Of a stretch of 64,000 nucleotides of DNA, positions 46,626 through 60,147 are shown in pieces. Below the pieces are notes generated by a model. It did not search any database. It worked only from the letters and a program-made list of their open reading frames with translations, and was not told where the DNA came from. Location of the stretch: the NCBI RefSeq assembly GCF_003182195.1, contig NZ_QGTM01000008.1:1-64000 (forward strand). Direction: 5' to 3'. A program made the position numbers and the translations under genes. Each line of letters opens with the position of its first letter. Positions within the stretch are counted from its first letter, which is position 1. The DNA comes from Halomonas sp. A11-A. Lineage in GTDB: Bacteria; Pseudomonadota; Gammaproteobacteria; Pseudomonadales; Halomonadaceae.

Positions 46626-47573
46626 CTACTCGAAGACGATCCGTGGCAGATAGAAGGAGACCACCCAGTTGGGCGCATCCACGATCTCGCTGATGCGCAG
46701 GTCGCCGCACACCGAGCAGAGCATGTAGGCCTGTTCGGCCGGCATGTTCCGAGACTTGCCCAGCCAGTCGATGGCCCCTTCCACCGCCTGGCGTGCCCCT
46801 GTCATCAGGTCGGGCCCGATGCCCGTGAACACCTCATAGCCGGCGCCGTCCAGATGGCGCGTCACGGGCCCGGGTGTGCTGAAGCGGGGCATGGCCAGGG
46901 GCGTGTCCTTGATCAGGTCCAGGGTGACGCTGGCCGTCATCGCGCTTTCGATGGCGGTGCCGCAGACTTCGCCGTCGCCCTGGGCGGCATGCGTATCCCC
47001 GATCGAGAACAGCCCCCCGACGACTTCCACGGGCAGATAGAGCGTGCTGCCGGCGCTTAGGTCGCGAATGTCGAGATTTCCGCCGACGCGCCTCGGCGGC
47101 ACGATGGAGTGGGTGCCCGCGGCGGCGGGGGCCAGCCCGATGGTGCCGGCGAATGGTTTCATGGGGATTCGTGCCTGGCTTGCGTAGGCGGCAGGTGTCC
47201 GAGTGGTGGTGTCGTAGTCCCAGAGGAAGAGCGCCGGGGACGTGAACTGATCGTGCAGCAGTCCGAATCCGGGGATGATGGCGGTCCAGCCGAACCCGGA
47301 GGGGCGGAACTCGTTGATCGTCACCTTGAGGATGTCGCCCGGTTGCGCACCATCGACAAAGATGGGGCCGGTCACCGGGTTGAGGTGCTCGAACGGCATG
47401 GTCGCCACGTCCGCCGCCTTCGACTCTCGGGTGAAGTAACCGCCGGAGGCATCCTGGCACTCGAAGGAGAGGGTGGTTCCGGGTGCCACCGTCTCGACGG
47501 GGGCGTAGGCAGGATTCCAGCCGTGATGGCAGTGCTGGCCATGGATCGTCTTGATGGGCGTCGGATGGGCCAT
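46626..47573 (-). CDS. Acetamidase/formamidase family protein
   Basis: This is a predicted amide hydrolase of the FmdA_AmdA family, which releases ammonia from formamide, acetamide or similar small amides. The 315 residues show [73 protein letters not shown], and [20 protein letters not shown], all family hallmarks with the metal-binding His and Asp. GGAGAT precedes the ATG. It is the last gene of the amide cluster, 28 nt after an amidase gene. Confidence 0.88.
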
Positions 47574-47601
47574 GGTGGCATCTCCTTTCTGTGGGAATGA
47601 C

Positions 47602-48867
47602 TCAGGGCATCAGGGCGCTGGCGATACTCAGCAGCCGCTGATCCTGATAGCGGTCGGCGATCAGCTGCACACCGACAGGCAGCCCCTGAGGCGTCCAGTG
47701 AAGTGGCAGGTTCACGCAGGGCACCCCCAGCAGGGTCCAGACTCGCGAGTAGATCGGGTCGCCGGTGCTGGCGAGGCCTTCCGGGGCCACGCCCGGGGCG
47801 CTGGGGGCAAGCAGCACGTCGAAGCGCATGGCAAGCTGTTGCGACAGCGTGAGCCTGGCCCGGTCGACGGCCTGCCGAGACGTCCAGCAATCCGCCAGAG
47901 ACAAGCGCAGCCCCTCGTCCAGCAGTGCGATCAGGGCCGGGCTCATCGATGCTTCGAAGCGCTCACGCTCACTGGCCAGGGCGTCTGCGGCCTCGTAGGC
48001 CAGGATGACCTGCTGGTGGGCCACGAGCTCATCGAATGACGCGCCCAGCTCGGCGGTACCGATATCGGCGCCAAGGGCGGCCATCTTCTCACCGGCGCCT
48101 TTCAGGGCGGTGGCGGTCTCCGGCGACGGCGAATGTGTGCTGGGCACCTGGCAGAGGCCGACGCGGACCCCGTCGAGCCGCGTCAGGGTGCGGATCGGGG
48201 GACTGCCGGTGAGAGCCCTGAACAGCGTGCGGCTGTCCTCCAGGTGCCTCGTGAACCAGCCCAGAGTGTCCAGTGATGGGGCGAGTGCCTTCACCCCGGC
48301 GACGCTCAGCGTGCCGTGGGTGGGCTTGAAGCCGACAACGCCACAGTAGCTGGCCGGGCGGATGATGCTGCCCACGGTCTGGGTGCCCAGCGCCACGGGC
48401 ACCATGCCGGCGGCGACGGCGGCCGCCGAGCCGCTCGAGGAGCCGCCCGGGGTGCGTGTCGGATCGTGGGGGTTGCGGGTCTTGCTGGGCTGGAAGTAGG
48501 CATACTCGGTCGACACCGTCTTGCCCATGGGCAGGGCGCCGAGGCGCGTCAGCTGGGTGACGATGGCCGCGTCCATATCAGCGCGGTCGACCCGGTGATA
48601 GTCTCGGGTCCCCCATGTGGTGGGCAGTTGGGTTGTGTTGATGATGTCCTTGATGCCCACCGGGACGCCGCCAAGGGGCGCGTGAGGGGGGCCGCCATCA
48701 TGCACGGCTATGGCGGGCTCGGAGGCCAGGCACTCCCAGGCCTGGATGGTGGGATCCTGGGCTTCGATGCGCTCCCGGCAGGCCCGCCACCAGTCGAGAG
48801 GCGAGAACTCGCCGCGGGCGAGTCCGCGCTGAAAGCCTGCCAGGGTCATCCGGGTCCAATCGGTCAT
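47602..48867 (-). CDS. Amidase signature family hydrolase (first of two)
   Basis: This is a predicted amidase with the Ser-cisSer-Lys triad. The Lys lies in GVPVGIKDIINTT near residue 75. The amidase signature is RTPGGSSSGSAAAVAAGMVP near 145, and SIIRPASYCGVVGFKPTHG holds the nucleophile region. The 421 residues are compact for the family (450-500). It lies 66 nt after the second amidase and may be translated from the same mRNA. The substrate is unknown. Confidence 0.88.
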   Translation of the reverse strand: MTDWTRMTLAGFQRGLARGEFSPLDWWRACRERIEAQDPTIQAWECLASEPAIAVHDGGPPHAPLGGVPVGIKDIINTTQLPTTWGTRDYHRVDRADMDAAIVTQLTRLGALPMGKTVSTEYAYFQPSKTRNPHDPTRTPGGSSSGSAAAVAAGMVPVALGTQTVGSIIRPASYCGVVGFKPTHGTLSVAGVKALAPSLDTLGWFTRHLEDSRTLFRALTGSPPIRTLTRLDGVRVGLCQVPSTHSPSPETATALKGAGEKMAALGADIGTAELGASFDELVAHQQVILAYEAADALASERERFEASMSPALIALLDEGLRLSLADCWTSRQAVDRARLTLSQQLAMRFDVLLAPSAPGVAPEGLASTGDPIYSRVWTLLGVPCVNLPLHWTPQGLPVGVQLIADRYQDQRLLSIASALMP

Positions 48868-48933
48868 GTGCCTTCCACTCCTGACTGACCTGCTGCGTGA
48901 GGGGGGACGTGAGCGTGCTGGCCCGAAGTGGGA

Positions 48934-50334
48934 TCAGGGGGCCGGCGGTTCCCCGAGAAGGTCGAGGCCGGTCCCCAGCTGCTCCTCGATGGCCTGGCCG
49001 ATGGCCAGCAGCCGGGCGTCCTGCCAGGGGCCGGCCAGCACCTGCAGTCCGACCGGCATGCCGGCACTGTCCTTGCCGACCGGCAGGGTCAATCCGCAGA
49101 GCCCCATGAAGTTGGCGATCACCGTGTTGCGCAGCGCCTGCATGTTGGCACGGGCGTAGGCGCCCTCGGGGAGCAGACTCTCCAGGGTGGGGGGCGTGAT
49201 CGCTACGGTGGGAGTGAGCAGGGCGTCCACGTCGGCCAGGCGCGTCGCGGCGGCGACAGTCAGCTTGTCGATGATGGCGCGGCGGCGGACGTACTCCCAG
49301 GCCGGCATGTCGTCCGCGGCCTTGACTCGTGCAGCGACATTGGGGTCCAGGGTCTCGATCATCTCGGGCAGCTCGGTCTTGAGGAAGGCCGCCAGTTCGG
49401 CTGCGGCCAGCCCCCCTTGCTGGAACAGGGTGTACGCCTCGTCGGTATGGGGCAGGTCGAGGGTTACCACGCGGGCTCCGGCCGCCTCGAGCCGGCGGAT
49501 GGCCGCCTCGACGGCTTCGGCAATCCCCGGGCTGCAGTCTTCCCAGAAGAAGGTGCTGGGCACGCCGAAGGTCAGATCGGCCAGCGCGGGCGGCGCCGGA
49601 ACGCGGGTGGCCCGGCCCGTCAGGGCGCCGTCTAGCGCATCGAAGGTGAAAGCCAGGTCGTCCACTCGGTGAGCCAGCAGCCCCGGGGTGTCCAGGGTGC
49701 TGGAAAGGGGCACGATCTGCTGCGTCGACCAGCGGCCGGCGGTGGTCTTGAGTCCCGCGACCCCGGTCATGGAGGCGGGAATACGCACCGAACCGGCGGT
49801 ATCGGTGCCGAGGGCAAGACTGGCGGTGCCTCCCACCAGTGACACCCCGGCGCCGGCGCTGGAGCCACCCGGCGTCCGGTGGTGCTGGCGGTCCCAGGGG
49901 TTGCGAGGCGCGCCCCAATGGGCATTAGTGCCGAGACCGCCGAAGGCGAACTCCACCGTGTGGGTCTTGCCCATCACGCTCGGCAGCTGGGCAAGCAGAG
50001 TTGCGACCATGGGGCCGGGCTGTTCCCACGCCCGGGGCAGCCGCCGCGACGAGCCGGCGTAGGTCGGCAGTCCCGGTACCGCATAGATGTCCTTGATGGA
50101 GACGGGAATGCCCATCAGGGCACCGGTATCCCCGCCCTGGTGGATCACCGCATCGGTGGCCCGGGCGAAGGCCAGCGCGGCCTTGCCGGTCCAGGTCAGG
50201 TAGGCATGGTCATGTTCGCCGCGGGCCTGGTGGGCCGCCAAGGAGGCCTCGGCCAGGCGGGTGGCAGTGAGCGAGCCGCTGCGCAGTCCGGCGTAAAGTT
50301 CGCGGAGCGGACGCTTCAGGGGGGAGTCGGTCAT
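48934..50334 (-). CDS. Amidase signature family hydrolase (second of two)
   Basis: The 466-residue amidase has the catalytic Lys in GIPVSIKDIYAVPGL near residue 78, a signature TPGGSSAGAGVSLVGGTASL near 150, and DTAGSVRIPASMTGVAGLKT with the nucleophile Ser region. It differs clearly from the neighbouring amidase (GGSSAGA versus GGSSSGS), so the two are not a recent duplication and probably act on different amides. It lies 17 nt after the RidA gene. Confidence 0.88.
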   Translation of the reverse strand: MTDSPLKRPLRELYAGLRSGSLTATRLAEASLAAHQARGEHDHAYLTWTGKAALAFARATDAVIHQGGDTGALMGIPVSIKDIYAVPGLPTYAGSSRRLPRAWEQPGPMVATLLAQLPSVMGKTHTVEFAFGGLGTNAHWGAPRNPWDRQHHRTPGGSSAGAGVSLVGGTASLALGTDTAGSVRIPASMTGVAGLKTTAGRWSTQQIVPLSSTLDTPGLLAHRVDDLAFTFDALDGALTGRATRVPAPPALADLTFGVPSTFFWEDCSPGIAEAVEAAIRRLEAAGARVVTLDLPHTDEAYTLFQQGGLAAAELAAFLKTELPEMIETLDPNVAARVKAADDMPAWEYVRRRAIIDKLTVAAATRLADVDALLTPTVAITPPTLESLLPEGAYARANMQALRNTVIANFMGLCGLTLPVGKDSAGMPVGLQVLAGPWQDARLLAIGQAIEEQLGTGLDLLGEPPAP

Positions 50335-50351
50335 GGCTGACTTCCTTTTGA

Positions 50352-50822
50352 TCAGTCGCGGATCTCGAAGATCGCTTCGACTTCGACGGCGGCGTTGCCG
50401 GGCAGGGTGGCAACCCCGATGGCGGTGCGGGCATGGCGCCCGTTCTCGCCGAACAGCGTGATGAACAGCTCCGAGGCGCCGTTGATCACCAGCGGCACGT
50501 CGTGGAACCCGGGTGCCACGTTGACGAAGCCGTTCATGCGCACGCAGCGCACGACCCGGCTCATGTCGCCGCCCACCGCATCGCTGAGCGAGGCCAGCAG
50601 GTTGAGGGCACAGGCCTGCGCGGCCAGCTTGCCGGTCTCGAGGTCGAACTCGGCACCCACCTTGCCGGGGTAGAGGACCTCGCCGCCCTGCTCGCAGATC
50701 TGGCCAGCAAGGAACAGCTGGTTGCCCAGCCGTGACCAGGGCAGGAAGGCGCCTCGGGGGCGCGGGATGGCGGGCAGGGTGAGGCCTTGTGCGGCCACGG
50801 CCGCTTCAATGGTCTGGGTCAT
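50352..50822 (-). CDS. RidA/YjgF family protein of the amide cluster
   Basis: This 156-residue protein is a divergent RidA (LPWSRLGNQLFLAGQICEQG near the start, AAQACALNLLASLSDAVGGD, RHARTAIGVATLPGNAAVEV at the end). The Arg of the RidA active site is kept in HARTAIG. Members of this group are often found in catabolic operons and hydrolyse an enamine, aminoacrylate-type or ureido intermediate. Start candidates are ATG 50831 and ATG 50822; the second has AAGGA at better spacing and is 1 nt from the previous stop. Confidence 0.88.
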   Translation of the reverse strand: MTQTIEAAVAAQGLTLPAIPRPRGAFLPWSRLGNQLFLAGQICEQGGEVLYPGKVGAEFDLETGKLAAQACALNLLASLSDAVGGDMSRVVRCVRMNGFVNVAPGFHDVPLVINGASELFITLFGENGRHARTAIGVATLPGNAAVEVEAIFEIRD

Positions 50823-50823
50823 A

Positions 50824-52089
50824 TCAATCATTCCTTGTCTTGAGCAGCTGCTCGACGGCATGAGCCAGGGTGCGGACGGCAACCACGGCGTCGGCGCGCT
50901 CGATCTGTTCATCGGGGTGGTGGCTGATGCCCGCGCGGCAGGGAGTGAAGAGCATTGCCGTGGGGCAGAGGTGGGCGAGATGGATGGCGTCGTGAAAGGC
51001 TCCGGACACCAGTCGCGGGGCCTTTGGCCAGTGCGCCTCGACGGCCTCGTCAAGCACGGCGACCAGAGCGTCATCGAAGGCTACCGGGGCCACCCGCGAG
51101 GTGGCCTGCAGGCTGGCTATGCAGCCGGACCACTGCCGCTGCGCCAGCTGTCGGAAGGCCGTGTCCAGCGCCTCCAGCACCTTCGGGTCGGGGTGGCGAA
51201 GGTCGATGGTGAAGCGGGCCCGCTGGGGGATGGTGTTCACCGAGTTGGGCGACAGCGCGAACTTGCCGATGGTGAAGCGCACCTGATCGTCGTGGGCCGC
51301 CACGGCTGCCTTCAGGGCGCCGACCAGGGCGTGGGCGCCCATGAAGGCATCGCGACGCGACGCCTCCGGCGTGGTGCCCGCATGGTTGGCCTGACCGTCG
51401 ACCTCGACTTCGTACCAGTGGACGCCCTGGATGCCGGTGACGACACACACCGGCGCGCCCTGTTCCTCCAGCACGGGGCCCTGCTCGATATGCAGCTCAA
51501 GGAAGGCATGGGGCACGACCGGCGCGGAGCGAAAGTGAGCGCCGCGGGCCTCCAGCAGCGCCAGGCAGTCGGCCAGCGCCGCCTGGAAGGTGACCCCCTC
51601 ATCGTCCTGTGCGGCGAGGATCGTCTCGGCGTCGCGCCGGCCGGCGAACCAGGATGAGCCGGAGGCGCCAGGGGTGAAGCGTGCCCCCTCCTCGTTGGTC
51701 CAGGAGACCACCTCGACCGGTCGAGCATGGGTGACCTCTTGCTCGGCTAGGGCGCGCAGTATGGCAAGGCCGGCCACCACGCCCAGGGTGCCGTCATAGG
51801 CCCCGGCGTTGGGCTGGCTATCGAGATGGCTGCCGATCAGCAGCGGGGCGAGGGTCGGATCCTGCCCCTCTCGGCGCAGGAAGACATTGCCCATGGCGTC
51901 GTAGTGGGCGCTGCACCCCAGCGCCTCGCCTTGCGCCATCAGCCACCGCCGGGCGTGGTTGTCCTGATCGCCCAGTGCCAGGCGGCGGATGCCGCGAGGG
52001 GAGAGGGCGCCGATCCGGGCCTGGGCCTCGACATCCTTCCAGAAGCGGTCGCCATCGACCGCGCTGGCCAGGAATGCACTCGCTTGCAT
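50824..52089 (-). CDS. M20-family Zn-dependent amidohydrolase (AllC/HyuC-like)
   Basis: The enzyme resembles allantoate amidohydrolase, N-carbamoyl-L-amino acid hydrolase and beta-ureidopropionase, which remove ureido or carbamoyl groups. The metal site is visible: GSHLDSQPNAGAYDGTLGVV near residue 87 (His and Asp), TNEEGARFTPGASGSSWFAG near 130 (Glu), LELHIEQGPVLEEQG near 195 (His), and GVHWYEVEVDGQANHAGTTP in the dimerisation domain. The last His lies in AGISHHPDE near the end. The 421 residues are full length. It lies 11 nt after the TRAP permease gene. Confidence 0.88.
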   Translation of the reverse strand: MQASAFLASAVDGDRFWKDVEAQARIGALSPRGIRRLALGDQDNHARRWLMAQGEALGCSAHYDAMGNVFLRREGQDPTLAPLLIGSHLDSQPNAGAYDGTLGVVAGLAILRALAEQEVTHARPVEVVSWTNEEGARFTPGASGSSWFAGRRDAETILAAQDDEGVTFQAALADCLALLEARGAHFRSAPVVPHAFLELHIEQGPVLEEQGAPVCVVTGIQGVHWYEVEVDGQANHAGTTPEASRRDAFMGAHALVGALKAAVAAHDDQVRFTIGKFALSPNSVNTIPQRARFTIDLRHPDPKVLEALDTAFRQLAQRQWSGCIASLQATSRVAPVAFDDALVAVLDEAVEAHWPKAPRLVSGAFHDAIHLAHLCPTAMLFTPCRAGISHHPDEQIERADAVVAVRTLAHAVEQLLKTRND

Positions 52090-52100
52090 GGTCGGTCTCC

Positions 52101-53375
52101 TCAGTAGAGCAGCGATGGTAGCCAGGTGCTGATCCAGGGCACGTAGGTGATGACCATCAGGGCGATCAGCATGATCAGGATCAGCGGCAGGCAGGCCTTG
52201 AAGACCTCCTGCAGCGACATCTTCGAGATCGCCATGGCCACGAACAGGTTCAGGCCGACGGGCGGGGTGATCATGCCGACGGAGAAGTTGACCAGGGTGA
52301 TGACGCCGAAGTGGACGGGATCCACGCCGACCTGGGCGGCAATCGGCTGCAGCAGCGGCGACAGGACGATGATGGCCGAGGCGCTGTCGAGGAAGAAGCC
52401 GGCAACGATCATCACCACGTTGAACAGCGCCATCACCAATAAGGGGTCGTCGGTAAGAGAGAACACCTGCCCCGCCAGCTGGGTTGGGGTGCCGGTAATG
52501 GCCAGCAGCCATGAGAAGGCCGAGGCCCCGGCGGTGATCAGCAGCAGCGTGGCCGAGATCAGGCCGGAGCTGCGCAGGGTGCCGAGCAGGTCCCGGAAAT
52601 CGATGCTGCGATAGACCACCATGCCGACGAACAGCCCGTACATGCAGGCCACCGCCGCCGATTCGGTCGGGGTGAAGATGCCGCTGTAGATCCCGCCAAG
52701 GAGGATGAACGGCAGGCCCAGGCCCCAGGCGGCTGACTTGAATGCCGTGCCGATTTCGCGGTGGGACGGGAATGGCGAACGCTGATAGCCCTTGAACGAG
52801 GCGTAGACAATGCAGTAGGCGATCAGCAGCGAGCCGATCAGGATGGCCGGCAGCAGGCCGGCTGCGAACAGCCGGCCGACCGAGGTGCCGGTCACCGACC
52901 CATAGATGATCAGTGCGATGCTGGGCGGCACGATGGGCCCCAGGGTGCCCGCGGTGGCAATCAGGCCGATGGCGAAGCGCTTGTCGTAGCCGGCCGCCAC
53001 CAGGGCAGGGAACATGATCGTGCCGATGGCCACTACCGTGGCGGGGCTGGATCCGGAAATTGCCCCGAAGAACAGGCAGGAGAGCACGGTGGCCGCCGCC
53101 AAGCCTCCCGGTACCCAGCCCACCAGCGCCTTGGCCAGGTTGATGAGCCGGTCCGACAGTCCGCCGATGCGCATCAGCTCGGCGGCCAGGATGAAGAAGG
53201 GGATGGCCATCAGAGAGAAGTTGTTCATCCCGGTGAACATGCGCATCGGCACGATCACCGGGTTGGTGGTGCCGAAGAACTCGATGGCCAGGATGACGGA
53301 GAAGGCCAGCGCCGCGAAGATCGGCAGCCCCAGCAGCAGCACCGCGAAGAAGATGGGAAGAAGTGCCGTGATCAT
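52101..53375 (-). CDS. TRAP transporter large permease subunit (DctM)
   Basis: This is the main membrane subunit of a TRAP importer. The 424 residues have about twelve hydrophobic segments and the family patterns LLGLPIFAALAFSVILAIEF, AIPFFILAAELMRIGGL, FGAISGSSPATVVAIGTIMF and GMITPPVGLNLFVAMAISKM. It belongs to the two-subunit Q-M type with the next upstream gene, 15 nt away. Confidence 0.93.
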   Translation of the reverse strand: MITALLPIFFAVLLLGLPIFAALAFSVILAIEFFGTTNPVIVPMRMFTGMNNFSLMAIPFFILAAELMRIGGLSDRLINLAKALVGWVPGGLAAATVLSCLFFGAISGSSPATVVAIGTIMFPALVAAGYDKRFAIGLIATAGTLGPIVPPSIALIIYGSVTGTSVGRLFAAGLLPAILIGSLLIAYCIVYASFKGYQRSPFPSHREIGTAFKSAAWGLGLPFILLGGIYSGIFTPTESAAVACMYGLFVGMVVYRSIDFRDLLGTLRSSGLISATLLLITAGASAFSWLLAITGTPTQLAGQVFSLTDDPLLVMALFNVVMIVAGFFLDSASAIIVLSPLLQPIAAQVGVDPVHFGVITLVNFSVGMITPPVGLNLFVAMAISKMSLQEVFKACLPLILIMLIALMVITYVPWISTWLPSLLY

Positions 53376-53390
53376 GAGGGTCTCCAGTCG

Positions 53391-53912
53391 TTAGACGAGC
53401 TTGTCTTTCTCGGCGGCGAGCTCTTCGGCGAGAGTGACCGGCGGCTTGGTCCAGGCCTCATGGATGACCCACAGGTAACGCAGGATCAGCAATATGCCCG
53501 ACACACCGATTGGCAGGTAGAACCAGGCCATGGGCAGACGCAGGGCGGCCGTAAGCTGTCCGCGCCCCAGCGTGTTGAAGTAGAGCTGGAAACCGTAGTA
53601 GGCCAGGAAGCCGGCGAAGGCGATGCCCAGCACGGCGGCGATGATATGCAGCCAGCGGTTGATGGCGGGGGGCACAAAGGCGTTCAGCACGTCGACGGAG
53701 ATATGCACGCCGTGCCTGACCCCCATGCTGGCCCCCACGAAGCTCATGCAGATGATGGAGTAGATGACGACTTCCTCGGCCCAGAACAGCGAGCCATTGA
53801 AGCCGTAGCGATAGACGACCTGGATGGTGGTGATGATGGTCGCGATCGACATGAACGCGACCATCGCCACACTCTCCAGGAAATCAATCACCTTGTTGAG
53901 TGCTTCAAACAT
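53391..53912 (-). CDS. TRAP transporter small permease subunit (DctQ)
   Basis: The 173-residue membrane protein has four hydrophobic segments (VAMVAFMSIATIITTIQVVY, VIYSIICMSFVGASMGV, WLHIIAAVLGIAFAGFLAYY, and YLPIGVSGILLILRYLWVI) and RHGVHISVDVLNAF, a DctQ hallmark. It sits between the binding protein and DctM genes, the usual order. Confidence 0.9.
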   Translation of the reverse strand: MFEALNKVIDFLESVAMVAFMSIATIITTIQVVYRYGFNGSLFWAEEVVIYSIICMSFVGASMGVRHGVHISVDVLNAFVPPAINRWLHIIAAVLGIAFAGFLAYYGFQLYFNTLGRGQLTAALRLPMAWFYLPIGVSGILLILRYLWVIHEAWTKPPVTLAEELAAEKDKLV

Positions 53913-53956
53913 GGTGAGTGCACCGGGTTAGAGTGACATCGAAGAGGGTGGCAGGA

Positions 53957-54958
53957 TCAGTACTCGATACCCACCGCGTCATAGACCTTGTGCAGGAGCT
54001 CGGTGGTGACCACGCTCTCGTACTCCTCATGCACCGGCATGCTGGCCTCGATGAAGGCCTCGCGCGCCTCGGGGGTGATCTCGTTGATCGCAATCTCGTC
54101 CTGGATGGCGGCCAAGATCGTCTCTTCGTCCTGCAGGGTCAGCTCGCGTGAGGCGGTGCGCCCGTTGTCGAAGGCTTCCAGCATTACCGCCTGCAGATCC
54201 TCGGGCAGGGAGTCCCAGGAGTCCTGATTGATCACCGCCGCGTAGGCGTGGTAGGCGTGGTTGGTCAGCGACAGGTAGTCCTGCACTTCGTGGAAGCGCA
54301 TGGTGTAGATATTGGCCAGCGGGTTCTCCTGGCCGTCGACGACGCCCTGCTGCAGGCCGTTGTAGACCTCGGAGAAGGCCATGGGGGTGGCGTTGGCGCC
54401 GAAGTTCTGATAGGTGGAAATGATGATCGGTGCCTGCATGGTGCGCATGCGAATGCCATCGAGGTCCTCGGGGCCATGGATGGGCCTGATGTTGTTGGTC
54501 ATGTGGCGGAAGCCGGCGCCCCAGAAGTTCACGCCATACATGTTATGTCCGCTGAGGGTGTCCAGAATCTCGCGCCCCACGTCGCCATCCAGGGTCGACA
54601 CCATGGTGTCGTAGTCGGCGATCAGGAAGGGCAGGTCGAGGATCTGCATGCGCGGCTCGAAGTTGCCGAGTGTTGCGGTGGGCGGGATGCCGATATCGAC
54701 CAGGCCCATCTGGATCTGCTCGATGATCTCCACGTCGCCGCCGACCTGGGCCGCGGGCAGCACGTTGATCTGGATGCGTCCCTCGGACTTCTCCTCGACC
54801 TCCTCCTTGAAGCGAAGTGCTGCCTGTCCGTTGGGCGTATCCTCGATCAGGACGTGGGCGAAGCTGAAGGTGTACTCGGCGGCCTGGGCCTGGCTCATGC
54901 CGAAGGACGCGGCGGCAATCGCCGCCACCAGTGACACCTTGGTCAGTTTGCTCTTCAT
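53957..54958 (-). CDS. TRAP transporter substrate-binding protein (DctP)
   Basis: This is the periplasmic receptor for the TRAP importer of the amide cluster. A signal peptide (KVSLVAAIAAASFGMSQAQA) is cut before AEYTFSFAH. The mature protein has DctP features: RIQINVLPAAQVGGDVEIIE, LDGIRMRTMQAPIIISTYQN with the ligand-binding Arg, and FSEVYNGLQQGVVDGQENPL. The 333 residues are typical. The ATG at 54958 follows AAGGTG and matches the family; the frame extends 3 codons upstream. The ligand is unknown but probably a carboxylated amide or ureide. Confidence 0.9.
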   Translation of the reverse strand: MKSKLTKVSLVAAIAAASFGMSQAQAAEYTFSFAHVLIEDTPNGQAALRFKEEVEEKSEGRIQINVLPAAQVGGDVEIIEQIQMGLVDIGIPPTATLGNFEPRMQILDLPFLIADYDTMVSTLDGDVGREILDTLSGHNMYGVNFWGAGFRHMTNNIRPIHGPEDLDGIRMRTMQAPIIISTYQNFGANATPMAFSEVYNGLQQGVVDGQENPLANIYTMRFHEVQDYLSLTNHAYHAYAAVINQDSWDSLPEDLQAVMLEAFDNGRTASRELTLQDEETILAAIQDEIAINEITPEAREAFIEASMPVHEEYESVVTTELLHKVYDAVGIEY

Positions 54959-55071
54959 TGTCAGCACCTTGTTGGGTTGTTGGTGTGCATCTTCGCGTGA
55001 CGATCGACACCGGGGGAGCCCGGCGTCACCCGCACTCGGTACGGGCCCTTTCAGCCTGACGCGGACAGGCG

Positions 55072-55093
55072 GAGCATGTTGCCGGCCATGCTC
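55072..55093 (-). terminator. Possible hairpin after the asparaginase stop
   Basis: GAGCATG and CATGCTC are 7-bp arms around 8 nt, overlapping the asparaginase stop. There is no T run. It could reduce read-through into the TRAP genes. Confidence 0.25.
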
Positions 55094-56096
55094 AGGCCGT
55101 CAGGGTTCGTAGTTGCGCGCCGACCTCGCCGTTCGCTGAGGCGAGGAGGGCCGACAGGGCAAGCCTGGCCTTGCGGGCGCTCAGGTCGTGTACGGCGATG
55201 ACGCCGGTCTCCTCCAGGCTCGCCAGGCTGCCCACGAACTCGTAGCTGGCGTGGACCGGCCCGCTGGGGCAGCTGCTGACGATCGCCACCGGGGTGCCTT
55301 GCGCGGTAATGCGCGTGATGACGTCCAGCCAGTCTGGAGGAACGTGGCCGCGCCCCAGGCCGTCGATCACCAGGCCGGCGGCGCCCCCGGCAACGGCAGC
55401 CTCCAGCAGGGTGGGCGAGGCATCCAGATAAGCAGGCAGGATGTCGACCCTCGGCAGCGTGGCGTCGGCGGGAAGCTCCAGGCCCACGGAGCGAGTGGGA
55501 TGCATCGCGATGGTCACTCTCGCCCCGTCGACATAGCCGAGCGGACCGGCCTCGGGCGCGGCAAAGCCGTTCACCTGAAAGCTGCTGACCTTGCGCACCT
55601 GCCGGGCAGAGAAGATCGACTGGTTGAACACCACCAGAGGGCCGAGGCCGCGGGCCTTGTCGCTCGCGGCGACCATCACGGCGTCGGCGATATTGCGAAA
55701 GGCATCCGTCCCGGGTTCATGGGGGGCGCGCTGCGAGCCGGTCAGCACGACAGCGGGGGAGGCCGACAGGGTGATGTCGAGGAAGTAGGCGGTCTCCTCG
55801 AGGGTGTCGGTGCCATGGGTGATGACGACGCCCGCCACGTCGGAGCACTCGGCCAGGGTCAGGCACTCCCGGCGCAGGCTCATCAGGTCGTCGCGGGTAA
55901 TGGCATTACTGGGCTTCTGGAGCAGGGAGCGGACCTCGACGTCGATGGCCGCGCCCTCCGGCAGCGAAACCTGGCTCATCAGCACGTCACCCTGCAGTGC
56001 ACCCGACCGATTCCGGCCGGAATCATCCAGGCTGCTGGCGATGGTGCCGCCGGTGGTGATAACCACCACCCGAGTGCTTGTCCTGACTCTTGTCAT
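55092..56096 (-). CDS. Type I/II asparaginase family protein
   Basis: The enzyme hydrolyses L-asparagine or a related beta-amide to release ammonia. Both catalytic regions are visible: VVVITTGGTIASSLDDSG near the start and VVITHGTDTLEETAYFLDIT near residue 90, plus VLTGSQRAPHEPGTDAFRNI. There is no signal peptide, so it is cytoplasmic. Two ATGs are possible (56117 and 56096); the second has GGTGA a few nt upstream and gives 334 aa. It lies 134 nt upstream of the TRAP binding protein on the same strand, divergent from a GntR gene. Confidence 0.87.
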   Translation of the reverse strand: MTRVRTSTRVVVITTGGTIASSLDDSGRNRSGALQGDVLMSQVSLPEGAAIDVEVRSLLQKPSNAITRDDLMSLRRECLTLAECSDVAGVVITHGTDTLEETAYFLDITLSASPAVVLTGSQRAPHEPGTDAFRNIADAVMVAASDKARGLGPLVVFNQSIFSARQVRKVSSFQVNGFAAPEAGPLGYVDGARVTIAMHPTRSVGLELPADATLPRVDILPAYLDASPTLLEAAVAGGAAGLVIDGLGRGHVPPDWLDVITRITAQGTPVAIVSSCPSGPVHASYEFVGSLASLEETGVIAVHDLSARKARLALSALLASANGEVGAQLRTLTA

Positions 56097-56156
56097 TGTT
56101 GTCACCGTGTCGGGCATGGGGGCTTGGGCCCGTGATGCCGTTTCAGTGGTCAGGCA

Positions 56157-56175
56157 TCAGATGTCTGTTGTCTGA
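56157..56175. promoter_or_regulatory. Inverted repeat, candidate GntR operator
   Basis: TCAGA and TCTGA lie 9 nt apart (TCAGATGTCTGTTGTCTGA) in the gap between the divergent asparaginase and GntR genes. Similar TGTCTGA-type elements are typical of FCD-type GntR regulators, but this is weak evidence alone. Confidence 0.4.
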
Positions 56176-56299
56176 ACCCATGCTAGACTCGATTTCGAGC
56201 CGCCTGCAAGCGGGAAATGACAGGACGTCCAAATTTTTCGGCATCGACAAAGAATATTTCGCTTCGATGCGGCACGCCACGCCAACACGAGACGCCAGC

Positions 56300-57031
56300 A
56301 TGAGCCTGAAACGCCAGCCCACACTGCCGCTCACGTCCATGGAGAGCTTCGGCAGCTCCATCGACCGCAGCTCCGTCGCCCTGCAGCTACTGGAGCGTAT
56401 CAAGGAGGCTCTGATCCGCGGTGAACTCCAGCCGGGCGATTACCTGCCGTCGGAGACCGAGCTGACCCAGACCCTGGGGATCGGCAAGTCGAGCGTCCGC
56501 GAGGCCATCAAGATGCTCCAGGCCATCGGCATCGTGGAGGTCAAGCGGGGGCAGGGCACCATGATCTGCCGCGAGCCGGGCGCCCCCCTGGTGGACCCGA
56601 TGGCCTTTGGGATGATCCTGGCGCGGGGCATGACGCGCGACGTGCTCGAGTTTCGCAAGATGTTCGAGCCCGCTTATACCCTGCAGGCCATGCATAATGC
56701 GCGTCCAGAGGACCATGCCCGCATCCAGCGGACCATCGAGGACATGGCCTCGGCAATTGCCAACGGGGAGCAGACGGCGCGCCACGATGCCGCCTTCCAC
56801 AGGGCCATCCTCCATGCGACCCACAACCCCATGACTATCCGTGTGGGTGAGACTCTGATTCAGCTGACGGAGGCGGCCTTGGAAACCTCCATGCAAACCC
56901 TGCCCGAGGTCGCCCTTAAGGATCACCGAGCGATCTACGCCGCCTTCCAGGCGGGCGACGAAGAGGCGGTGAAGGCGGCCATCACTGTCAGCAGCGAGAG
57001 CTGGGAGACCAACCTGACCTACGTCGACTGA
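56300..57031 (+). CDS. GntR-family regulator, FCD subfamily (of the amide cluster)
   Basis: The winged helix covers about residues 15-85: SSVALQLLERIKEALIRGEL, QPGDYLPSETELTQTLGIGK and SSVREAIKMLQAIGIVEVKR, followed by GQGTMI. The FCD domain follows with LEFRKMFEPAYTLQAMHNAR and HDAAFHRAILHATHNPMTI and a final DHRAIYAAFQAGD with the conserved His. The open frame begins at 56090, but that part overlaps the asparaginase start. ATG 56300 gives 243 residues; ATG 56270 and 56339 are also possible since none has a good ribosome site. It probably controls the divergent asparaginase and the TRAP/amidase genes. Confidence 0.85.
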   Translation: MSLKRQPTLPLTSMESFGSSIDRSSVALQLLERIKEALIRGELQPGDYLPSETELTQTLGIGKSSVREAIKMLQAIGIVEVKRGQGTMICREPGAPLVDPMAFGMILARGMTRDVLEFRKMFEPAYTLQAMHNARPEDHARIQRTIEDMASAIANGEQTARHDAAFHRAILHATHNPMTIRVGETLIQLTEAALETSMQTLPEVALKDHRAIYAAFQAGDEEAVKAAITVSSESWETNLTYVD

Positions 57032-57916: not shown

Positions 57917-59110
57917 ATGGCAGGCAACACCCCCGATGCATCCCTTCCCGCCACCATGTCGGCCATGCTGCTGACCGGACACGGCGACGTCGACCGGCTG
58001 GTCTACCGCGATGATGTGCCGGTGCCCCGGCCGGGGCCGGGCGAGGTGCTGGTGCGGGTCACCGCCACCGCCAAGAACAACACCGACCGCAAGGCCCGGG
58101 AGGGACTCTACCCGGTGAAGAAGGGTCAGGTGACGTCGTTCGCCATGGGCGGCGAGCCGACCCTGACCTTCCCGCGTATCCAGGGCGCCGATATCGCCGG
58201 GCGCGTGGCGGCGGTGGGTGAGGGGGTCGATCCGGCCCGGATCGGCGAGCGCGGCCTGCTCGACTTCAACCTCTATGCCGACGCCCGCCGCGACATCAAC
58301 TTGACCCCGGACTACTACGGCCACGGCGCCGACGGCGGCTTCGCCGAGTATGTGGCGGTGCCCGCGGACCAGTTCCACCACGTGCCCAACCCGGAACTGC
58401 GTGACGCCGAGCTCGCCGCCATGGGCATGTGCTCCTACCAGACCGCCTACCATATGATGACCTCGGCGAAGGTCGCCGCCGGCGAGCGGGTGCTGGTGAC
58501 CGGCGCCAGCGGCGGGGTGGGCACGGCGCTGATCCAGCTCTGCCGCATCGTCGGGGCGATTCCCTATGCGGTGAGCCAGCCGGAGAAGGCCGAGGCGCTC
58601 AAGGCGCTGGGTGCCGAGGCGGTGATCGACCGCGGCGACCTGGAGAGCTTCGTCGAGCGGGTACTCGCCGCTACCGGCGGCGCCCCCATCGATGCGGTGA
58701 TGGACCTCGTCGGCGGCGAGATGACCGATCTGTTCATCGACACCATGATCCACGACATGAAGACCCGGACCAGCTACCCGCGGCTCTCCATTGCCGGGGC
58801 CAGCGGCGGCAACCTCTCCGAGATCATGTGGACACGCATCTACCTCTACCAGGTGCAGATCTTCGGCGTCTCCCACGGCACCCGGGAGGAGGCCGAGCAG
58901 TTGATCGCCTGGATCCGCTCCGGCGAGCTCAGGCCGGTGCTGCATGCCGCCTTCCCGCTTTCCGCGCTGCACGAGGCCGAACGCTACTTCGTCAACCGCG
59001 GCAGCAACTTCCTGGGCAAGATCGTCATCGTCCCCGACAGCCAGTGGGAGGAGCACGGTGCTCCCTTCGCCCTGGCTTCCCCCTCCGCCCGCCAGGAGCC
59101 GCGCCCATGA
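57917..59110 (+). CDS. Quinone-oxidoreductase-like MDR family protein
   Basis: This is a medium-chain dehydrogenase/reductase of 397 residues. The GroES-like N-terminal half has YRDDVPVPRPGPGEVLVRVT, NTDRKAREGLYP, and FPRIQGADIAGRVAAVGEG. The nucleotide-binding half has VLVTGASGGVGTALIQLCRI and ALGAEAVIDRG. The zinc-ligand Cys residues of alcohol dehydrogenases are absent, as in quinone oxidoreductases. GAGGAGG precedes the ATG. The stop overlaps the next start (ATGA), so it probably works with the proline-racemase-like protein, but no joint pathway is known to me. Confidence 0.85.
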   Translation: MAGNTPDASLPATMSAMLLTGHGDVDRLVYRDDVPVPRPGPGEVLVRVTATAKNNTDRKAREGLYPVKKGQVTSFAMGGEPTLTFPRIQGADIAGRVAAVGEGVDPARIGERGLLDFNLYADARRDINLTPDYYGHGADGGFAEYVAVPADQFHHVPNPELRDAELAAMGMCSYQTAYHMMTSAKVAAGERVLVTGASGGVGTALIQLCRIVGAIPYAVSQPEKAEALKALGAEAVIDRGDLESFVERVLAATGGAPIDAVMDLVGGEMTDLFIDTMIHDMKTRTSYPRLSIAGASGGNLSEIMWTRIYLYQVQIFGVSHGTREEAEQLIAWIRSGELRPVLHAAFPLSALHEAERYFVNRGSNFLGKIVIVPDSQWEEHGAPFALASPSARQEPRP

Positions 59111-60147
59111 GCCGCCCGCTGACCTTCCAGATGATGGACACCCACGCCGGCGGCGACGTCAGCCGCATCGTCCTCGGCGGCATCGCACCGCTGCCCGGCG
59201 ATACCGTGCGCGACCAGATGCACTACCTGCGTGACGATGCCGACGGCCTGCGCAAGCTGCTGCTCTTCGAGCCCTACGGCATCCCCGAGATGTCGGTGGA
59301 CCTGATCGTGCCGGCCACCGACCCCGAGGCCGCCGCCGGCTACATCATCATGGAGGTGATGGGCTACCCCATCTATTCGGGCTCCAACACCATCTGCACC
59401 GCTACCGCGGTGCTGGAGGCCGGCATCGTGCCCAAGCGGGAGGGAGTGCAGCACTTCACCCTCGAGGCCCCGGCGGGCCGGGTCCAGATCGAGGCCCGGG
59501 TGGAGAACGGCGTGGTGGAGGCGATCACCTGCGAGGGGCTGCCCAGCTACATCGACACCTACCGCGCCTCTCTCCAGGTGCCGGGGCTGGGCGAGGTCAC
59601 CTACAGCGTGGCCTACAGCGGCGGCTTCTACGCCCTGGTGGACGCCACCGAGCTCGGCTTCTCGCTGGTGCGGGAGGAGGAGCGCGCCCTGGCCGAGTGC
59701 GCCCACAAGATCGTCGAGGCGATCCAGGCCGAGCGAGGCTTCTCCCACTACACCCTGGGCGACGTGGGGCCCCTGCCCTTCCTGCACTTCATGGGGCCGG
59801 TGGAGCAGGTGGCGGAGGGTTACTACCGCTCCCGCTCCACCACCTATGTGCACCCGGGGGTGATCTGCCGCAGTACCACCGGCACCGGCACCTCGGCGCG
59901 CCTGGCGCTGATGCACCACGAGGGGCGCATCCGCCCCGGCGACCGCCTGGAGACCGTCTCCCTGCGCGAGACCGGCTTCATCGGCACCTTCACCGGCACT
60001 CACCAGGAGGGGGCGCACACCGTGGTGGAGAACACCATCACCGGGAAGGCTTTTGTGCTGGGCCATACCGAGGTGGTGGTCAACTGCGACGACCCCCTGG
60101 TGGCCTGCGACGGCCTTCACCATATCCTGACTGCCCGCCACGGCTGA
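59107..60147 (+). CDS. Proline racemase superfamily protein with Ser/Thr at the catalytic positions
   Basis: The 346-residue protein has the proline racemase fold (MMDTHAGGDVSRIV, GYIIMEVMGYPIYSGSNTIC, THQEGAHTVVENTITGKAF). Proline racemase and 4-hydroxyproline epimerase use two residues at about 91 and 256; the described pairs are Cys/Cys, Ser/Cys and, for trans-3-hydroxyproline dehydratase, Cys/Thr. Here they are Ser91 (YSGSNTIC) and Thr258 (CRSTTGTGTSA). The Asp that binds the amine (DRSPCGTG in ordinary members) is Cys254. It is therefore probably not a racemase and may act on another substrate. It is translationally coupled to the upstream oxidoreductase. Confidence 0.85.
   Translation: MSRPLTFQMMDTHAGGDVSRIVLGGIAPLPGDTVRDQMHYLRDDADGLRKLLLFEPYGIPEMSVDLIVPATDPEAAAGYIIMEVMGYPIYSGSNTICTATAVLEAGIVPKREGVQHFTLEAPAGRVQIEARVENGVVEAITCEGLPSYIDTYRASLQVPGLGEVTYSVAYSGGFYALVDATELGFSLVREEERALAECAHKIVEAIQAERGFSHYTLGDVGPLPFLHFMGPVEQVAEGYYRSRSTTYVHPGVICRSTTGTGTSARLALMHHEGRIRPGDRLETVSLRETGFIGTFTGTHQEGAHTVVENTITGKAFVLGHTEVVVNCDDPLVACDGLHHILTARHG

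Follow-up and report, generated by a model that had tools for sequence, protein, structure and literature searches.

What does a ten-gene amide-catabolic cluster of Halomonas sp. A11-A take into the cell, and do its genes form a single pathway? The cluster lies in a 64,000-nucleotide (nt) stretch of DNA (here, the window) on contig C8 of the 3.33-Mb genome. It consists of genes for a divergent GntR-family regulator (GntR), an asparaginase, a tripartite ATP-independent periplasmic (TRAP) importer (DctP, DctQ, and DctM), an M20-family amidohydrolase (M20), a Rid-family protein (Rid), two amidases (Ami1 and Ami2), and an FmdA-family protein (FmdA). An initial annotation had recognized these genes from the sequence; all ten are present as open frames, and their families are as given there (Pfam and NCBIfam). 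The eight minus-strand genes from dctP onward are as tightly spaced as it had described, with gaps from 1 nt (M20-Rid, with Rid at 50352-50822; an alternative Rid ATG at 50831 is possible) to 66 nt (Ami1-Ami2). The start of DctP was placed at the ATG at 54958, and the gap between the asparaginase and DctP genes is 133 nt. We tentatively favor the explanation that the cluster is a GntR-controlled operon that imports an amide-bearing short carboxylic acid and removes its nitrogen inside the cell. The ten genes are not one fixed pathway; they comprise a conserved core and lineage-specific extra hydrolases.

The division into core and extra genes comes from a profile scan of genome contigs with an Ami1 alignment, which returned 46 distinct loci. 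Gene counts cover 34 of these, and the other 12 were excluded: four on short upstream contigs (L043, L051, L057, and L062), two that are very distant (L084 and L085), and six with Ami1 relatives at ~45 to 50% identity and no cluster (L075 and L077 to L081), among which L078 has an Ami2-like gene at 35% and L080 a DctM-like gene at 27%. A gene copy was called complete at ≥85% query coverage and ≥42% identity within 9.9 kb of Ami1, with frame breaks allowed. Complete copies were found in 29 of the 34 relatives for GntR and for each of DctP, DctQ, and DctM, in 28 for the asparaginase, and in 25 for Rid. M20 is complete in 20 relatives (19 in the cluster; that of L047 sits ~8 kb off, in another operon) and Ami2 in 13, and the M20 match of L083, a locus with broken frames, lay under the completeness filter. 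FmdA, which had been counted as part of the set, is found only in the window and in two relatives (intact in L042, broken in L041); the remaining 32 relatives have no FmdA. The order GntR | Asn-DctP-DctQ-DctM-(M20)-(Rid)-Ami1-(Ami2) is co-linear in 28 of the 34 loci, an arrangement beyond chance. The importer is absent from five loci (L052, L056, L058, L061, and L064), and L047 retains the whole core except the asparaginase, with importer, Rid, Ami1, and Ami2 present.

On a quick Ami1 tree with long outgroup branches, used solely to count gains and losses, the minimum numbers of changes are four for M20, five for Rid, and three for Ami2 (L047 was scored as lacking M20, and the partial M20 of L058 as present). 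A search for the gene cluster, proposed as a check of a stepwise pathway from one compound, had a divided outcome: GntR, the importer, the asparaginase, and Ami1 are mostly kept together, while M20, Rid, Ami2, and FmdA come and go, and a fixed sequence of steps is not supported. In the same tree, L053, a Pseudomonas record, groups with Modicisalibacter, which represents either a transfer or a mislabelled record. Two Vreelandella species share the same deletion, from the interior of GntR to the last Rid codons, with Ami1 intact (L061, 9629-9975; L051, 375-721), and L056 retains the end of GntR and an intact Ami1.

Part of the core is also found outside the family. In L134, from another family of the same order, DctP, DctQ, DctM, and Ami1 (74, 73, 83, and 65% identical to those of the window) stand together behind a LysR-family gene, and the remaining cluster genes were not found within 19 kb. 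A Gemmobacter fulvus plasmid (L104) groups a LysR gene with Rid, Ami1, and DctPQM (DctP 58%, DctQ 45%, DctM 71%, Ami1 55%, and Rid 42%); the asparaginase, M20, Ami2, and FmdA were not found within 21 kb, and the sole GntR match is weak (28%, residues 8 to 89), to a gene annotated as an aminotransferase-family protein. Because L134 and Gemmobacter keep the pair without the other hydrolases, importer and Ami1 form the oldest visible link in the cluster. Among named records, Halomonas campaniensis has the Ami1 most similar to that of the window (93%).

A shared regulatory site accompanies the core. The gap between GntR and the operon was excised from 29 loci (the window and 28 relatives), and all 29 gaps contain the palindrome AGACATC[A/T]GATGTCT behind a conserved promoter-like element. 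The palindrome is perfect in 24 gaps and has one mismatch in five, the window being among the latter; the consensus was derived from the same, related gaps in which these matches were counted. None of 2,900 mononucleotide shuffles came within one mismatch of it. The putative promoter was not listed by a scan for the sigma-70 consensus. With one mismatch allowed, eight genomes were searched for further sites, and each has at most two. A perfect operator lies at the cluster in G003, G009, G013, and G015 and ~4.5 kb from Ami1 in G109; G000 has a one-mismatch operator at the cluster, G181 has none there, and G204 has none genome-wide. One extra one-mismatch site occurs in each of G000, G003, G009, G109, and G181, and the two of these five that were inspected lie in or beside unrelated genes. 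A reversed control pattern was matched in one of the eight genomes. The simplest reading of these counts would be one regulator for one operon, and the cluster is probably co-regulated by the divergent GntR.

The asparaginase looks cytosolic, judging from the position of its start. Its frame opens at 56117, and the ATG at 56096, 14 residues ahead of the catalytic motif, fits the orthologues better. Among 27 loci, the spacing from the ATG to TGGTIAS is 10 residues in 22 loci and 14 residues in five (the window among these), and in 11 there is no in-frame ATG, GTG, or TTG further upstream. No export signal is apparent from the start positions over these 27 loci, which were assessed without a dedicated signal-peptide predictor. 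Because a signal peptide would not fit in 11 of the 27 loci, import of the intact amide is probable. The asparaginase residues T25, T103, D104, and K176 are invariant in 12 of 12 sequences, and the nearest group in a profile search is that of the 7c8q/8h4d asparaginases (334 to 342 bits; next, 199).

The head of this operon has been described before. According to sections of a 2017 paper, Halomonas "type II" asparaginase (ansB) genes are flanked by DctPQM with a divergent GntR gene ahead; the paper reads the asparaginase as a cell-surface enzyme and assigns C4-dicarboxylates, aspartate for instance, to the importer (PMC5843318). The GntR-ansB region was amplified from isolates H23 and H28; both grew with asparagine at 1 mM, and at 0.1 mM when ammonium was supplied, and their asparaginase activity was inducible (PMC5843318). 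Isolates H3 and H27 showed no growth at 1 mM asparagine (PMC5843318). The primers given in that paper have 2 and 3 mismatches to the window and predict a 619-nt product (in the paper, about 600 bp). Over the 29 loci, the forward primer has 0 to 3 mismatches and the reverse primer 1 to 5, against 5 to 7 and 4 to 6 in 18 control loci; the forward primer separates the two groups cleanly, and the ranges of the reverse primer overlap. The two sites, in GntR and the asparaginase, are properly oriented and 538 to 672 nt apart in 27 of the 29 loci, the exceptions being L047, which has no asparaginase, and L069. The claim that the cluster is undescribed therefore needs to be narrowed: the GntR-asparaginase-DctPQM part is in print (PMC5843318), and our literature searches turned up no publication covering the remainder (amidase, M20, Rid, and FmdA), which is also without mention in passages of PMC3187862.

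The other proteins of the core are consistent with import of an acid and hydrolysis of an amide. All three importer subunits exceed the Pfam cut-offs of the TRAP families, and R172 of DctP is invariant in 17 of 17 sequences; we take this arginine to have the carboxylate role of its counterpart in the family. The AlphaFold model of DctP has a mean predicted local distance difference test (pLDDT) score of 69.5, and 50 TRAP-type entries at Z 26 to 29 are among the matches listed in a Protein Data Bank (PDB) comparison. No cargo could be read from the model or from these matches, and inference of the ligand from it was dropped. Ami1 and Ami2 belong to the amidase signature family, with PF01425 and the Lys-Ser-Ser triad; K81, S158, and S182 of Ami1 are invariant in 18 of 18 sequences. 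The Ami1 model is confident (pLDDT 92.2) and undiscriminating as to substrate, as entries for the 2dc0 amidase, GatA, biuret hydrolase, and malonamidase E2 fall in the same Z range of 46 to 50.

We propose that DctPQM would bring the compound in, as suggested by its family, the invariant arginine, and the linkage, and that cytosolic hydrolases would then release ammonia, with the asparaginase and Ami1 as the near-constant enzymes. The likeliest class of cargo would be asparagine together with short dicarboxylates in half-amide or carbamoylated form, and the products would be aspartate, malonate, or similar acids plus ammonia. GntR probably represses from the conserved palindrome just after the promoter and would let go once the cargo or its product binds. 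M20, Ami2, and FmdA, which are present in some species and absent from others, may be add-ons that widen the range, and Rid may hydrolyse an imine side product. The general outline of the initial annotation, an amide-catabolic cluster with a TRAP importer and a divergent GntR, is thereby retained: the cluster is conserved and probably co-regulated, and the catalytic motifs of its hydrolases are intact.

Several observations weigh against this explanation. The asparaginase is below the cut-offs of both type II (TIGR00520; 181.1 versus 314.3 bits) and type I (TIGR00519; 121.8 versus 260.5 bits) enzymes, and several asparaginase loci have longer alternative starts (in L069, an ATG at 23 to 31 residues and a GTG at 80). 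Asparagine need not be the main cargo, because L047 keeps the importer, Rid, Ami1, and Ami2 without the asparaginase. Isolate H2 gave no amplification of the region yet likewise grew at low asparagine, including 1 mM, in the sections cited above, whose authors call their primers not universal (PMC5843318). Ami2-like genes (45 to 55%) occur without adjoining cluster genes in L029 to L031, L031 having a distant TRAP importer. Ami1 relatives over strict limits are present in 5 of 293, 12 of 398, 4 of 369, and 19 of 385 genomes (the genome of the window being counted in the first three), and 20 of their neighborhoods were opened (18 genomes of the 385-genome set and 2 of the 369-genome set). No relative of the importer or of Rid was found at E ≤ 1e−6 beside these Ami1 relatives (44 to 61% identity), and one neighborhood has an M20 relative at 34%; because neither importer nor Rid appears in any of the 20, the link between Ami1 and the importer is not universal. 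Likewise, among 14 stretches from earlier Ami1 searches, only L134 has the importer, and L123 and L126 show distant TRAP genes. Finally, the best plasmid matches of Ami1 outside Halomonas are to an amidase near the end of operons for aromatic meta-cleavage that are carried by pCNB, pI2, and plasmids of Achromobacter and Burkholderia (53.7 to 53.9%; the Gemmobacter gene has 55.1%).

This last association provides the chief lead against reading the operon plainly as one for asparagine. It raises the alternative that the substrate of Ami1 and Rid is a dicarboxylate, unsaturated or an enamine, of the kind that aromatic ring cleavage yields (2-aminomuconate-like, or its amide), that the importer brings in such an acid, and that the asparaginase is a passenger. 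A truncated Ami1 relative (273 codons, 59%) at or near the end of a similar meta-cleavage operon in L136 agrees with it, as do the protocatechuate genes that adjoin the Rid-Ami1-DctPQM set of Gemmobacter. pCNB also carries a Rid-family gene, and AmnE is presumably a Rid-family protein too. AmnE, a 2-aminomuconate deaminase, is the subject of PMC6742747 in the parts cited here. Because the amidases of the four beta-proteobacterial plasmids are one protein (461 to 462 of 462 residues identical), however, the aromatic link amounts to one event plus L136. Moreover, the importer of the cluster is not present on those plasmid stretches, the loci read showed no obvious ring-cleavage gene next to the Halomonas cluster, and Ami1 keeps the amidase triad; we consider this alternative improbable. 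CnbZ, which we take to be a 30-kDa deaminase, was not equated with the 462-residue pCNB amidase and was rejected as a counterpart of Ami1. Three Ami1-like amidases stand in tandem in each of three alpha-proteobacterial genomes (L172, L173, and L175).

Equally improbable, in our view, is the model of the initial annotation, in which a single ureide or N-carbamoyl compound loses its amide and carbamoyl nitrogens stepwise and M20 carries out the key step. M20 does fall in the hydantoinase/carbamoylase family (368.6 bits versus a cut-off of 204), it is in the cluster in more than half of the relatives, and its motifs GSH, NEEG, LHIEQG, and SHHP, which we take to be metal ligands, are intact and invariant in five of five sequences. 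Against the model, M20, Ami2, Rid, and FmdA are dispensable, and there is no cyclic amidohydrolase among the ten genes by Pfam (no search for Rut, hydantoin, or creatinine sets was made over the rest of the genome). An allantoin-type role fares no better, as M20 is below the listed allantoate-amidohydrolase cut-offs (TIGR03176, 229.7 versus 597.75; NF006775, 312.5 versus 479; NF006770, 257.3 versus 372). Genes for PuuE allantoinase, ureidoglycine aminohydrolase, and the ureidoglycolate lyase AllA, all over their cut-offs, lie near a contig end elsewhere in the same genome (C9, L185, 4879-9241), and of two further M20 enzymes the copy on C14 exceeds an allantoate-amidohydrolase equivalog cut-off (495.6 versus 479). 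Because these genes and a fitting M20 lie elsewhere, the allantoin pathway can be served without the cluster, and the ureide reading is weakened; ureides other than allantoin are possible. That the hydrolases are instead unrelated scavengers of nitrogen under one regulator, each with its own substrate and with no common pathway, would suit the module-like gains and losses counted on the tree and the rarity of FmdA. We regard this as unlikely, since the single conserved operator, together with the near-constancy of importer, asparaginase, and Ami1 as the core, argues for one shared class of cargo.

We give still less weight to the idea that importer, Ami1, and Rid, a trio retained by Halomonadaceae and also by Gemmobacter, where the asparaginase is missing, form a route devoted to some unusual amide or enamine dicarboxylate from the environment, and that the full set might, in halophiles, accept amidated osmolytes, for example N-carbamoyl-L-glutamine 1-amide, a decidedly unlikely cargo. 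This compound is reported from Ectothiorhodospira marismortui in part of PMC1224877. Its carbamoyl group, alpha-amide, and side-chain amide would match M20, an amidase, and the asparaginase; that it has no carboxylate speaks against it as cargo of a TRAP importer. For naming the cargo, a conserved candidate operator and a defined core are now available. Should the cargo be a half-amide or an amidated osmolyte, the operon would give halophiles an added nitrogen source; should it be asparagine, it would be an ordinary nutrient operon with extra hydrolases.

In Ami2, K73, S143, S167, and R170 align with K62, S131, S155, and R158 of malonamidase E2, the residues whose mutants are named in the titles of its PDB entries, and are invariant in five of five sequences. 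FmdA belongs to PF03069 and scores 143.1 bits against a cut-off of 500 for the formamidase equivalog NF045496. The broken FmdA of Halomonas campaniensis (L041, 12762-13189) is without codons 69 to 237, and a tRNA-Arg is close by, as in the window. R132 of Rid aligns with an arginine, which we take to be Arg105, of the RidA of the same genome and of two other Rid proteins (4/4). Rid thus has the conserved active-site arginine of imine-hydrolysing Rid proteins; passages of PMC4433059 give it as the mark of those subfamilies (RidA and Rid1 to Rid3) for which imine hydrolysis is predicted. The suggestion that Rid clears an enamine made by the cluster itself found no support, as no pyridoxal phosphate-dependent enzyme or amine oxidase is among the ten genes by Pfam.

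Table 1. Positions of the cluster genes and putative regulatory sites in the window
Feature	Position	Strand	Remarks
GntR-family regulator (FCD subgroup)	56300..57031	+	divergent; PF00392, PF07729; complete in 29/34 relatives
Putative operon promoter	56180..56210	-	conserved CTTGC element, then TAGCAT; columns conserved across 29 aligned gaps
Putative GntR operator AGACATCTGATGCCT	56152..56166	-	one mismatch to AGACATC[A/T]GATGTCT
L-asparaginase-like enzyme, predicted cytosolic	55092..56096 (open frame to 56117)	-	PF00710, PF17763
TRAP solute-binding protein DctP	53957..54958	-	PF03480; TIGR00787 above cut-off
TRAP small permease DctQ	53391..53912	-	PF04290
TRAP large permease DctM	52101..53375	-	PF06808; TIGR00786 above cut-off
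M20 hydantoinase/carbamoylase-family amidohydrolase, accessory	50824..52089	-	TIGR01879, 368.6 bits
Rid-family protein (PF14588 type), RidA-type arginine	50352..50822	-	
Ami1, amidase-signature enzyme, core	48934..50334	-	PF01425; nearest NCBIfam PRK07056, below cut-off
Ami2, malonamidase E2-like amidase, accessory	47602..48867	-	best PDB matches are malonamidase E2 entries
FmdA/AmdA-family protein, apparently recent addition	46626..47573	-	PF03069

Flanking genes were rejected as parts of the pathway, as the neighbors beyond the set vary between species. Beyond GntR, the window has an oxidoreductase-like gene (by eye) and a proline-racemase-family gene (57917-60147), the best family of the latter being trans-3-hydroxy-L-proline dehydratase, below its cut-off; relatives of this pair lie on the opposite side of the cluster in L050. 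A threonate/erythronate operon with its own TRAP importer follows the cluster in L046 (12674-20436) and likewise in several Vreelandella-type loci (families were tested in L046 only), which we take as plain adjacency. Near the cluster of Billgrantia endophytica (L047, 13868-19985) are an amino-acid-type ABC importer (by eye), an M20 enzyme, and an agmatinase-family enzyme, a set that may be a route for guanidino compounds. Elsewhere in the genome of the window, a racemase-like gene (by eye) stands alongside the allantoin genes, and a second amide cluster (C12, L189, 6986-14852) has a carbon-nitrogen hydrolase, an M20 enzyme, and a diaminopropionate ammonia-lyase, next to look-alikes, by eye, of a TRAP importer and an RpiR-type regulator.

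Several known systems are close to parts of the cluster and differ from them in some respects. The amidase of pCNB/pI2-type plasmids is a full-length relative of Ami1 (~54%), yet relatives of the other nine genes were not found on those plasmid stretches (E ≤ 1e−5). Malonamidase E2 of Bradyrhizobium is the closest solved relative of Ami2, and its catalytic residues and the equivalent of R158 are kept; whole-length similarity is moderate. Like the Rid-family imine hydrolases, the Rid of the window is of the PF14588 type with the conserved arginine, but its operon has no imine-forming enzyme by Pfam. M20 shares its family (TIGR01879) and metal-site motifs with allantoate amidohydrolase and N-carbamoyl amino acid hydrolase and remains below the cut-offs listed for the former. 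The Halomonas ansB cluster has the same GntR-asparaginase-DctPQM head of the operon, and the sections of PMC5843318 on it do not name the amidases, M20, Rid, or FmdA found here. The enzyme is placed at the cell surface there, whereas the asparaginase here has no room for a signal peptide, which calls the published picture into question: the importer probably takes in the amide, not the product aspartate.

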